Source: Mycobacterium branderi (GTDB taxonomy: Bacteria; Actinomycetota; Actinomycetes; Mycobacteriales; Mycobacteriaceae). Taken from it: a stretch of 64,000 nt of DNA. Shown here piece by piece: positions 20,441-23,976 of the stretch (position 1 is the first letter of the stretch; the number at the start of each line of letters is the position of its first letter). The DNA lies in NCBI RefSeq assembly GCF_010728725.1, contig NZ_AP022606.1, positions 1,736,001 through 1,800,000 on the forward strand. The letters run 5' to 3'. The position numbers and the translations under genes are program-made. Under the pieces are notes generated by a model. That model searched no databases and was not told the DNA's origin. It saw only the letters and a list, made by a program, of their open reading frames with translations.

Positions 20441-21052
20441 TTGTTTGAAGGGCCGGTCCAGGATCTGATCGACGAGCTCGGCAAGCTGCCGGGGATCGGG
20501 CCGAAGAGCGCGCAGCGCATCGCCTTTCACCTGTTGTCCGTCGAACCGTCCGACATCGACCGGCTGACCGCGGTGCTGGGCAGGGTCCGCGACGGCGTGC
20601 GGTTCTGCGCTGTGTGCGGCAACGTCTCCGACGACGAGCGGTGCCGAATTTGTTCTGATACCCGTCGAGATGCATCTCTGGTGTGCGTCGTCGAGGAGCC
20701 CAAAGACGTCCAGGCCATCGAGCGCACCCGCGAATTCCGCGGCCGCTACCACGTGCTGGGCGGGGCGTTGGACCCGCTGTCCGGGGTCGGTCCTGAGCAG
20801 CTGCGGATCCGCGAGCTGCTGAACCGGATCGGTGAGCAGGTCGACGGCGTCGACATTACCGAAGTCATCATCGCCACCGACCCCAACACCGAGGGCGAGG
20901 CGACGGCCACCTACCTGGTGCGGATGCTGCGCGATATCCCGGGCCTGACCGTGACGCGGATTGCGTCCGGTCTGCCGATGGGCGGGGATCTGGAGTTCGC
21001 CGACGAGCTGACTCTGGGCCGCGCGCTGACGGGGCGCCGCGCGATGGCTTGA
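20441..21052 (+). CDS. recR: Recombination mediator RecR
   Basis: 203 residues from a TTG start at 20441, one base after the ybaB stop; the sequence [20 protein letters not shown] is the normal RecR N-terminus, so the rare TTG is well supported. Features in order are the helix-hairpin-helix [15 protein letters not shown], the Cys4 zinc finger [16 protein letters not shown], the Toprim domain starting [14 protein letters not shown], and the C-terminal [16 protein letters not shown]. RecR works with RecF and RecO to load RecA on gapped DNA. An imperfect palindrome starts 10 bp after the stop and may end the transcript. Confidence 0.96.
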
Positions 21053-21062
21053 CTTTTTGCCG

Positions 21063-21119
21063 CGACACTTAAACCTCTGCGACGACACGCCGGGGCGCTT
21101 CGCAGTTGTTTAAGTCTCG
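21063..21119. repeat. Left 57-bp arm of an inverted repeat framing a nuclease-fold gene
   Basis: This arm matches the reverse complement of 21994-22050 at 54 of 57 positions, and the match stops sharply at both ends. The arm is itself a near palindrome: CGACACTTAAAC at one end and GTTTAAGTCTCG at the other, around a GC-rich centre. It can form a hairpin after recR and may act as its terminator. Confidence 0.9.
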
Positions 21120-21154
21120 GTGGACGTGTCGGTGGGGTGTGACAACGTCCAGCC

Positions 21155-22003
21155 ATGGACGACGTGTTCGTGGGCAGCGAGGCTGTACAGCAGGGGAGGC
21201 TGAGCCCCTATCAATTGCGGACTGAGTGCCGCTCGATCTATCCCAACGTCTATGTGGCCGATTACGCGGTTCAGTCGCTTCGAACGCGTTCGGCTGCGGC
21301 ATGGCTGTGGTCAGGTAGGCGCGGGGTGCTGGCCGGACTCGCCGCCGCGGCACTGCATGGCGCGAGGTGGATCGACGACGACGAGCCCGTTGAGTTGATC
21401 TGGCGCAACCCAAATCCGCCGGCAGGCTTGATAACCCGCAATCAACGTTTGGCGGAGGACGAGATCACCCACGTGGCCCGGTTGCCGGTTACCACTGTCG
21501 CGCGTACTGCCTATGATCTGAGTCGACAACTACCGCGCGATCAGGCGGTCGCCCGCCTCGATGCGCTCACGCGGGCCACACCGTTTTCAGCAGAGGACGT
21601 GTTGCTGCTGGCCAAGCGCTATCCGGGGGCTCGCGGTCTGCGGCGGTTGCGGGAGGCACTGCCCTTGGTGGACGGCGGCGCCGCCTCACCCAAAGAGACC
21701 TGGCTGCGGCTGCTGCTGATCGACGCGGGGTTTCCGACGCCGACCACGCAGATACCGGTCCATGAGAACTGGCATCTGGTTGCCGTACTGGACATGGGCT
21801 GGGAAAAGTACAAAGTCGCGACCGAGTACGACGGCGATCACCACCGCAGTGACCCCAAGCAGTGGCGGAAGGATCAGCGGCGGCTGCGCAAGCTCGAAGC
21901 GATGCGCTGGATCGTGATCCGGGTGATTGCCGGTGATACGCGCGAGGACATCATCGGGCGCGTTCGTGCCGCCCTAGTCGGTCGGGGTTACCGCGAGACT
22001 TAA
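21155..22003 (+). CDS. DUF559 (Vsr-like nuclease fold) protein with AbiEi-like N-terminal part
   Basis: 282 residues. The first about 170 residues resemble the winged-helix and linker of AbiEi-type antitoxin-like proteins (GRRGVLAGLAAAALHGARWI, RLPVTTVARTAYDLSRQLP). The C-terminal part (KYKVATEYDGDHHRSDPKQW, RKDQRRLRKLEAMRWIVIRV) is DUF559, a domain related to Vsr endonucleases; the Asp-Gly-Asp-His-His segment sits where metal-binding residues are expected. Function is unknown. The gene lies in the Rv3714c position between recR and gatD. Its last codons and TAA stop are part of the right inverted-repeat arm, so gene and repeat share a boundary. Confidence 0.75.
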   Translation: MDDVFVGSEAVQQGRLSPYQLRTECRSIYPNVYVADYAVQSLRTRSAAAWLWSGRRGVLAGLAAAALHGARWIDDDEPVELIWRNPNPPAGLITRNQRLAEDEITHVARLPVTTVARTAYDLSRQLPRDQAVARLDALTRATPFSAEDVLLLAKRYPGARGLRRLREALPLVDGGAASPKETWLRLLLIDAGFPTPTTQIPVHENWHLVAVLDMGWEKYKVATEYDGDHHRSDPKQWRKDQRRLRKLEAMRWIVIRVIAGDTREDIIGRVRAALVGRGYRET

Positions 22004-22050
22004 ACCATTGCGAAGCGCCCCGGCGTGTCGTCGCAGACGTTTAAGTGTCG
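21994..22050. repeat. Right 57-bp arm of the inverted repeat
   Basis: The reverse complement of the arm at 21063-21119, with three mismatches. It contains the stop codon TAA (22001-22003) of the DUF559 gene and lies between that gene and the convergent gatD, whose stop is 13 bp further on. The arm is near-palindromic and can fold in either RNA direction, so it may also terminate both genes. Confidence 0.9.
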
Positions 22051-22063
22051 CCGTCCTACGCTC

Positions 22064-22759
22064 TTAGGCGCGCAGGCGTTCGCGGCGCAGCAACTCCACT
22101 TCCGGCAACTTCAGCGGCGCCAATTCTCCGACGACCCTGCTGAGCAGGTAGTCGGCCAGCTCGGGATTGCGGGCCAGGCACGGGCCGTGCATGTAGGTCG
22201 CGACCACGCTGCCCTGCACCACGCCGTCGAAGCCGTCCCCGGCCCGGTTGCCGGCGCCCTTGACCACCGCGCCGAGCGGCCTCGCCGCCGGGCCCAGCAC
22301 CGTCCCACCCCGGTGGTTCTCGAAGCCGGTCAGCGGCTGCGTCAACCCGTCGAGCAGCGGCGTGCTGACCACCTCGCCGATCGTGCGCTTGGCCTGGGGC
22401 GAAGTGGTGGCGTCGAGCAGGCCGACGCCGTCGACCCGCTCACCTGCCGACGTCTCATACCAAAGGCCCAGCACCTGGATGGCCGCGCAGATCGCCAGCA
22501 CCGGCGCGCCGCGGGCCGCGGCGCGCTGCAGGCCCGGATGCTTGATCAAGTGCCTGGTCGCCAGCCGTTGCGCGTAGTCCTCGGCCCCGCCCAGCGTGTA
22601 CAGATCCAATGACTCCGGCACCGGGTCGGCCAGCGTGATCTCGACAATCTCGGCGGCGATGCCCCGCAACCGCAGGCGCTGCCGCAGCACCACGGCGTTG
22701 CCGCCGTCGCCGTAGGTGCCCATCACGTCGGGCAGCACCAGCCCGATGCGGACCGTCAC
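22064..22759 (-). CDS. gatD: Lipid II isoglutaminyl synthase, glutaminase subunit GatD
   Basis: 231 residues from GTG 22759, matching Rv3713. A class I CobB/CobQ-like glutamine amidotransferase: nucleophile Cys in VLAICAAIQVLG (about 95), oxyanion glycines in TLGGAEDYAQ, and the catalytic His in ATYMHGPCLARNP. GatD releases ammonia that MurT uses to amidate D-iso-glutamate of lipid II. The GTG start overlaps the murT stop (GTGA), so the two subunits are translationally coupled. Confidence 0.95.
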   Translation of the reverse strand: MTVRIGLVLPDVMGTYGDGGNAVVLRQRLRLRGIAAEIVEITLADPVPESLDLYTLGGAEDYAQRLATRHLIKHPGLQRAAARGAPVLAICAAIQVLGLWYETSAGERVDGVGLLDATTSPQAKRTIGEVVSTPLLDGLTQPLTGFENHRGGTVLGPAARPLGAVVKGAGNRAGDGFDGVVQGSVVATYMHGPCLARNPELADYLLSRVVGELAPLKLPEVELLRRERLRA

Positions 22760-23976
22760 CGTAACCGCCGCTGCAGCTGCAGAAACGCCGTGTAGTTGGC
22801 GACCACCTCGACGCGTCCCGGCGGGCACGACGCGATCGCGCGCACGGTGTCGTGCACCAGCGTGTGCTGCACGCCCGCATAGCCGAGCCGCACCGCCAGG
22901 TCGGTGCCCCGCTCACCGGCGGCGACCACCACCGTGTCCTCGAAGTGCTCGAAGCGCACGTCCCACAGCCAGGACAGGTCTTCGCCGTCGGGCACCTGTC
23001 CGTTGACCGAGATGACCACCCCGGCCGCGTGCTTGTCGACCATCGACAACGCCTCCTGCCAGCCGGCCGGGTTCTTGGCCAGCAGCATCCGCACGTCGTG
23101 GTCGCCAACGCGGACCGTGCGGTACCGGCCCGCGACCTCGTCGACCCCAGACACCGCTTCGACGGCTAAAGCCGGATCCGCACCTAAAGCGACCGCAGCC
23201 GCCACCGCCTGGGCGGCGTTGCCCCGGTTCACCGCGCCCGGCAACGCCAGCCGCATCGGCAGCGCCAAACCGTCCGGGCCGTAGAGCATCTCGTCGTCGA
23301 ACCACCACTGCGGGCTGGGGCGCTTGAAGTCGGCCCCGGTGGAATACCAGTGGGTCTTGTCGCGAACGATCACTTCGCCGCTGCGCGGGCAGCTCACCGA
23401 GTCGGACGCCCAGCCGCCACCCGCGGCCACCCACACCACGTGCGGGCTGTCGTAGGCCGCCGAGGTCATCAGCACGTCGTCGCAGTTGGCGACCACCACG
23501 GTCGACGGGTGGCGGGCCAGCCCGGCCCGCAGCGTGCGTTCGATCACGTTGATCTCGCCGACCCGGTCGAGCTGGTCGCGGGACAGGTTGAGCAGGACGA
23601 CGACGCTGGGGTCGACGGCGTCGGCCACATGTGGGACGTGCATCTCGTCGACCTCAAGCGCGGCCAACCCCGCGTCGCGGCGGGCGGCCAGCGCCGCCAC
23701 CAAGCCGGCGTCCATGTTGGCGCCCTCGGCGTTGGTGGCCACCGCGCCGAGCGTGCCGAGCGCCGCCGCGGCCATCCGTGTGGTCGTCGACTTGCCGTTG
23801 GTTCCGGTCACGATCACCGTGCGCCGGCCCGAGCCCAGCTGACGCAGGATCGAGCGGTCCAGCGTCATCGCCACCAGCCCGCCGATCATGGCCCCGGCAC
23901 CGCGACCGGTTGCCCGCGACGCCCACCGCGCGCTGGCTCCTGCGGCCAGGGCGAGGCGTCCACGGGCGGTAATCAC
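22756..23976 (-). CDS. murT: Lipid II isoglutaminyl synthase, ligase subunit MurT
   Basis: 406 residues from GTG 23976 (ITARGRLALAAGASARWASR). The Mur ligase P-loop is VTGTNGKSTTTRM; then NAEGANMDAG, LEVDEMHVP, LLNLSRDQLDRVGE and the DUF1727 C-terminal domain. It amidates the alpha-carboxylate of glutamate in lipid II with ATP and ammonia from GatD. The insert that in Firmicutes holds a four-cysteine zinc ribbon has only one cysteine here (SVSCPRSGE), so zinc binding at that point looks lost. The transcript diverges from the exonuclease gene. Confidence 0.94.
   Translation of the reverse strand: MITARGRLALAAGASARWASRATGRGAGAMIGGLVAMTLDRSILRQLGSGRRTVIVTGTNGKSTTTRMAAAALGTLGAVATNAEGANMDAGLVAALAARRDAGLAALEVDEMHVPHVADAVDPSVVVLLNLSRDQLDRVGEINVIERTLRAGLARHPSTVVVANCDDVLMTSAAYDSPHVVWVAAGGGWASDSVSCPRSGEVIVRDKTHWYSTGADFKRPSPQWWFDDEMLYGPDGLALPMRLALPGAVNRGNAAQAVAAAVALGADPALAVEAVSGVDEVAGRYRTVRVGDHDVRMLLAKNPAGWQEALSMVDKHAAGVVISVNGQVPDGEDLSWLWDVRFEHFEDTVVVAAGERGTDLAVRLGYAGVQHTLVHDTVRAIASCPPGRVEVVANYTAFLQLQRRLR

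Follow-up and report, generated by a model that had tools for sequence, protein, structure and literature searches.

The window, the whole 64,000-nt stretch of Mycobacterium branderi DNA that was analyzed, carries a single gene framed by two palindromic repeats, hereafter called arms. The gene lies between recR and a gene that we take to be gatD, a name based on the recR-gatD-murT gene order. The features of the locus, in window coordinates, are as follows.

20441..21052, plus strand: recR, the left neighbor, with RecR domains
21058..21124 (core 21062-21119), minus strand: upstream arm, a palindrome of the R1 family
21155..22003, plus strand: DUF559/MTES_1575-type gene, 282 aa
21155..21673, plus strand: coding part for the AbiEi-like N-terminal region, residues 1-173
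21686..21991, plus strand: coding part for the predicted EDxHD/Vsr-like nuclease domain, residues 178-279
21989..22055 (core 21994-22051), plus strand: downstream arm
22001..22003, plus strand: TAA stop codon contributed by the downstream arm
22064..22828, minus strand: presumed gatD, the right neighbor, with a GATase_3 domain

The initial annotation had described inverted 57-bp arms with 54 of 57 bases identical, each a near palindrome, around a single gene that takes its TAA from the right arm, and this description was borne out. A repeat search of the window returned two arms of 58 nt each, 95% complementary and separated by 874 nt. Both are imperfect palindromes, with best self-complementarities of 70% and 68%; the protein ends in ...RGYRET, and its last codons and the TAA lie within the right arm. 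The match between the upstream and downstream arms scored 91.7 bits and is among the most alike pairs, while 300 random place pairs of equal spacing gave none at 30 bits or more and one at 25 bits. Folded as plus-strand RNA, the arms reached about −24 and −23 kcal/mol, and no RNA family of Rfam was found at the gathering score in window positions 20900-22200. In M. kyorinense, the gene is retained at 93% identity and the right arm is mostly lost; the comparison of the two genes gave a dN of 0.035 and a dS of 0.364, and the window gene is, as judged from these sequences, under purifying selection. Two paralogs in the M. branderi genome, at G000:C1:1953368-1954212 and 2509205-2510035, look broken, one being split and the other having an internal stop. 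In M. tuberculosis, Rv3714c adjoins Rv3713 (gatD) (PMC8210147), a position from which Rv3714c would be the counterpart of the window gene.

To classify the protein, we used profile, sequence, and structure searches. Pfam matches of the window protein stayed under the curated cut-offs (MTES_1575, 26.5 versus 38.2 bits; DUF559, 16.1 versus 20.6 bits), and PF01797 (Y1) was absent from its Pfam matches at E values up to 1. An NCBIfam search returned none near the cut-offs, a PDB sequence search gave two weak matches, both unrelated, and Foldseek by itself found no match at an E value of 0.001. Among 35 relatives, MTES_1575 was found at E ≤ 0.001 in 33. In the AlphaFold model, the N-terminus is AbiEi-like and the C-terminus is nearest to the homing endonuclease I-Bth0305I, with a predicted catalytic-domain fold that matches the EDxHD homing endonucleases. 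We regard the protein as a probable nuclease because of the MTES_1575 matches across the family and the predicted structure. The candidate active-site residues E181, D213, H230, and D240 are retained in 128, 129, 126, and 128 of 131 genes, respectively, and would correspond to the EDxHD motif. A review states that I-Bth0305I forms a dimer at a recognition site of almost 60 bp (PMC3943268). The gene family is large, with 3 to 13 matches per genome in 25 genomes of the genus and 4,817 DUF559-type homologues (E value of 1e-10) among 8,000 candidates scored. A search of 72,556 plasmid records at an E value of 1e-15 yielded only one weak match (E value of 2e-22, 40% identity, in an 11.9-Mb Nonomuraea record), and 50,697 phage records gave no match for the protein at 1e-10; carriage of the unit by plasmids or phages was thus rejected.

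The arms belong to a dispersed family. A search of the M. branderi genome with the arm sequence found seven copies at an E value of 1e-6 or better, and a covariance model of the R1 family, made from 23 arm copies, gave 18 strand-wise matches (E value of 0.001) at 13 places, namely, the window arms and 11 others. The gene family has five other loci in this genome, and none of these 11 places adjoins any of them; the closest approach is at 1950956, some 2.3 kb from a split paralog. Across the genus, the R1 model found arms in 41 of 60 genomes (E value of 0.01), and a strict arm pattern occurred in 12 of 148 genomes, with 0 matches for the reversed control. The consensus is a block of about 60 nt, CCGCGA(G/A)ACTTAAAC...TCGGCGTGTCGTCGCA...GTTTAAGTGTCGCGG. 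Among 92 distinct arms (ungapped, >35 bits only), the information per column was 1.32 bits inside the block (model positions 6 to 64) and 0.11 and 0.06 bits in the 30 flanking columns on each side. The R1 arms are therefore a family with sharp edges, as had been claimed for the window pair. Covariation in the R1 stem was weak, as 50 of 500 shuffled alignments matched the paired percentage and 27 matched the covariation score; on these figures, we did not accept covariation as proof that the stem is conserved. At L185 and L204, short tandem duplications sit right at the arm edge and are possible traces of repair.

Dispersed REP-like palindromes are classically tied to Y1 transposases (PMC2817692, PMC6006769), and the M. 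branderi genome has four Y1_Tnp matches. Both points would suit a scheme in which another transposase, of the RAYT/IS200 type or of another IS, moves the arms and the nuclease gene is a passenger. Against this, Y1_Tnp (PF01797) was present in 3 of 12 genomes and absent from both of the arm-richest ones (G001 and G074, with 44 and 37 strand-wise matches), so that RAYT-driven mobility was rejected despite its presence in M. branderi. Judged on Y1_Tnp in these 12 genomes, we regard movement by another transposase as very improbable. Three of the M. branderi Y1 matches are on the second contig, at G000:C2:308349, 455975, and 232138; the fourth, on the first contig at G000:C1:4841469, is short and weak.

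To evaluate how arms and genes are associated, we assembled 131 distinct DUF559/AbiEi-type genes with their flanks, including 80 named loci and excluding duplicates, matches of <180 residues, and one of 132 genes without flanks. The upstream and downstream stretches of the same gene matched each other at ≥30 bits in 73 of the 131 genes, compared to 0 of 300 random places with equal spacing; such pairs were found at 27 of 39 genes with R1 arms and at 46 of 92 without R1. In the other 58 genes, the gene's own pair scored under 30 bits, and mismatched pairs reached 30 bits in 7.1% of cases. R1 arms stand on both sides of the gene in 36 of the 39 units. Merging by any flank link, the conservative clustering used throughout, resolved 27 sites; clustering on both flanks gave 37 and over-split near contig ends. 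The R1 units fall into five conservative sites: recR-gatD (6 units), methyltransferase-msrB (26 units), a site next to a cytochrome b gene that is presumably qcrB (4 units), a site with a variant arm (2 units), and L212 (1 unit). All R1 unit counts given here, including orientations and gaps, are counts of sequences and not of independent events, and msrB dominates them (26/39). The initial annotation had set its reading against two other outcomes, arms confined to the window locus and scattered arms unrelated to DUF559 genes; we found neither, and the 39 units at five sites support its proposal that gene and arms may form a mobile unit.

The units share a fixed plan. The R1 upstream arm has a single orientation relative to the gene (38/38), and its end lies 31 to 34 nt from the start codon in 36 of 38 units. 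In 33 of 37 units, the last base of the stop codon is 11 to 13 nt inside the downstream arm, and this holds in both arm orientations; each end of the palindrome reads CGCGA(A/G/C)ACTTAA, which supplies a stop codon either way round. The downstream arm itself is on the plus strand relative to the gene in 19 units and on the minus strand in 18 (n = 37). Thus, the inverted arrangement that was noted in the window holds there but is not essential to the unit. The best match of an upstream arm was the downstream arm of its own unit in only 6 of 36 units. Among the 92 units without R1, a CTCGCACTTT-like motif was found upstream on the plus strand in 40, on the minus strand in 2, and on both in 1 (random places, 31/910), and downstream on the plus strand in 20 and on the minus strand in 2, with none seen in 70. 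A constant upstream orientation therefore holds in other families too, and a variable downstream orientation is seen for R1 only.

Other gene groups carry other repeats, for example, with a TACTCGCACTTT centre, an exact pattern that was present in 22 of 60 genomes (control, 0). At L045, a repeat pair 97% alike over 60 nt flanks a gene that is only 34% identical and that, by elimination, appears to come from outside the genus; judging from this locus, the arrangement of gene and repeat pair may be wider than the mycobacteria. To determine whether arms follow proteins, we compared upstream arms (match at ≥30 bits) among 128 intact genes, using pairs from different conservative sites. The arms matched in 80 of 97 pairs at 75 to 90% protein identity, 104 of 187 at 70 to 75%, 96 of 621 at 65 to 70%, 41 of 1,333 at 60 to 65%, 57 of 2,881 at 50 to 60%, and 1 of 1,755 at 30 to 50%. 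Arm similarity and protein identity had a Spearman correlation of 0.396, compared to a maximum of 0.105 in 200 permutations and to 0.04 for a control stretch farther upstream (all 131 genes). These results indicate that the arm travels and changes with the gene. Each gene group has its own repeat family, and R1 is the one whose dispersal was followed closely. Duplication of a terminator, which the initial annotation had already thought insufficient, was rejected as a full account, because the arms are a sharp-edged sequence family and vary with the protein. Proteins from clearly different sites were at most 84% identical, from which movement appears to be slow.

We then compared the recR-gatD interval among relatives, as the initial annotation had suggested. 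From 144 genomes with a RecR match, 60 were sampled, the closest first plus a spread; 8 of the 60 regions were dropped (no gatD match), and the 59 parsed loci also include six from earlier work and the one in the window. A DUF559 match was present in 32 and absent from 27, and the relatives carried a unit, a lone palindrome, or neither. The gaps without a gene ranged from 11 to 1,480 nt. In the closest relative by RecR (G087, 98%), the gap is 85 nt and holds a lone palindrome of another family; in G010, it is 83 nt with a lone palindrome of the ACTCG type, and in G099 and G055, it is 11 and 15 nt. The interval (window 21053-22063) is a turnover hot spot where several DUF559 groups and palindromes, lone palindromes, other inserts, or nothing were seen. 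G091, a 3.27-Mb genome (L051, L159), has a partial arm and a DUF559 gene remnant there.

At msrB, an MsrB match was present in 144 genomes, and we took the 30 with the best match; 6 of them were without a methyltransferase match, and 24 were parsed. Full units were found at 10 loci, solo R1 arms at 3, a decayed gene with an arm at 1, and no R1 match at 10; inspection of these last 10 by eye revealed arm remnants in 2 and a palindrome of another family in 1. Of the 26 R1 units at this site, 14 have the gene in the same direction as the methyltransferase and 12 in the opposite direction, yet the 3′-end arm of the gene has one orientation in the locus in all 26. This constancy argues against recombination between inverted arms, and two insertions of a cassette beside one resident arm would fit it; simple inversion was rejected, since it would not yield the observed arm orientations. 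In a tree of the neighboring genes, the outgroups are arm-free, and the solo, empty, and turned states are nested among units. The site probably had one old gain, after which units were lost and the orientation changed more than once. At L186 and L194, in two genomes, the msrB site also holds a longer palindrome whose ends resemble TGCCCGCCT..AGGCGGGCA, possibly another repeat family.

Solo arms also differ among relatives. Four relatives, M. kyorinense, M. shimoidei, G087, and G110, have no arm where their sequences align with the M. branderi arm at 4739638, and G087 also lacks the one at 3108707. The R1 arm of M. branderi at 2346986 is replaced by a different palindrome in M. kyorinense and G087, and three other relatives have none. 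Solo places at 1165287 (common to M. branderi, G087, and M. kyorinense) and 439302 (common with M. fragae) are shared, which indicates that many solo arms are old. In the aligned empty sites, the flanks were too diverged for a target duplication to be readable. We saw neither a target duplication nor an excision product, and we saw no jump that was recent.

Some solo arms and remnants (G119, G149, G096, and G052) resemble deletion products. Together with the slow spread, they would be expected if homologous recombination between old repeats carried the gene passively, with the nuclease inactive in the process. Such passive spread does not account for solo arms where relatives have none, nor for the kept candidate active-site residues and the purifying selection, and we consider it quite unlikely.

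The setting of 53 loci was inspected, with genes guessed by third-position GC and places common to relatives counted separately. Of 43 solo arms, 18 have convergent genes on their two sides, 20 have tandem genes, and none has divergent genes; 3 lie within a predicted gene, and 2 were ambiguous. The distance to the nearest stop codon was −15 to 22 nt in 29 of 38 measured. The same kind of placement is described for REPs (PMC3733652). A regulator or defense gene might leave a similar picture, with the upstream arm as an AbiEi-like operator, the downstream arm as a terminator, and the scattered arms as terminators. The solo arms are hairpin-capable, follow stops, and are never divergent; the distance and orientation of the upstream arm are fixed, and there is a precedent in a Streptococcus AbiEi that represses its own promoter by binding inverted repeats (PMC3985639). 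An operator and terminators would leave unexplained why a sharp sequence family occurs at unrelated sites and tracks protein relatedness and why relatives have palindromes of other families at the same site. We therefore hold this account to be unlikely.

Several known systems invite comparison. As described for REPtrons (RAYT/TnpA-REP), one nuclease gene stands between palindromic repeats, gene groups have their own repeat family, and solo repeats are intergenic near 3′ ends (PMC2817692, PMC3733652, PMC6006769). In contrast to REPtrons, a Y1/HUH domain match is absent here and the predicted fold is AbiEi-like plus EDxHD-like; the arms measure about 60 nt, have CCGCGA/TCGCGG at their ends, and lack a GT(A/G)G tag, whereas REPs are 20 to 40 nt with the tag. 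Moreover, the mycobacterial unit occurs at several sites; for REPtrons, by contrast, transposition of the whole unit is reported not to be apparent (PMC6006769). For the Actinobacteridae, the same source reports only subclass 1.1 Y1 transposases (PMC6006769). The RAYT comparison made at the outset thus survives as an analogy: the likeness is one of lifestyle, with no protein homology found, and an AbiEi plus I-Bth0305I-like model takes the place of the Y1 domain. Unlike I-Bth0305I and other EDxHD homing endonucleases, the protein is fused to an AbiEi-like region, and its gene does not lie within an intron or another gene but has a copy of the presumed site on either side. Unlike the AbiE type IV toxin-antitoxin systems, the window locus has recR and gatD as neighbors and no toxin gene, and the AbiEi-like part has an added nuclease domain, with palindromes flanking the gene and elsewhere in the genome. 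Myt-1 and Myt-8 of M. tuberculosis are likewise short, structured, dispersed repeats in a mycobacterium, Myt-1 being 72 nt with 75 members (PMC2267715). They are described there with no link to a nuclease gene, and Myt-1 could be one of these palindrome families. In the literature searched, which covered few subscription journals, no description of an association of DUF559 genes with palindromes was found.

Altogether, the association of arms with genes and their spread are well supported, and our data are best read as a REPtron-like system in which an unrelated nuclease of the homing type is at work. We estimate at roughly 0.6 the probability that the locus contains a copy of a compact chromosomal element whose protein recognizes and cuts its own palindrome, with repair copying the arm or the cassette. 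Such an element would consist of a palindromic arm and one gene, joined to a second arm. The AbiEi-like half would bind DNA and the homing-endonuclease-like half would cut it; the protein, probably in dimeric form, would recognize the ~60-bp palindrome of its own family and nick or cut it. Repair would then copy the arm or, less often, the arm and gene beside a resident arm, to new places, and new arms would mostly land just behind stop codons, where harm is small. We infer that the cassette is the upstream arm plus the gene, because the upstream arm is constant and because of the orientations at msrB; the downstream arm would be the resident target that also gives the stop codon. Movement of the element looks old and slow.

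A broader proposal, to which we would give even odds, is that these loci represent a new class of self-spreading element in which an AbiEi-EDxHD dimer cuts a ~60-bp palindrome, the cassette homes to solo arms, and lone arms are seeded behind stops, an independent, non-HUH version of the REP/RAYT lifestyle with many co-diversifying families in mycobacteria. If true, this would give a role to a large group of DUF559 genes and explain the dispersed palindrome families of mycobacteria, and it would mean that a REP-like lifestyle also arose with an enzyme unrelated to the HUH transposases.
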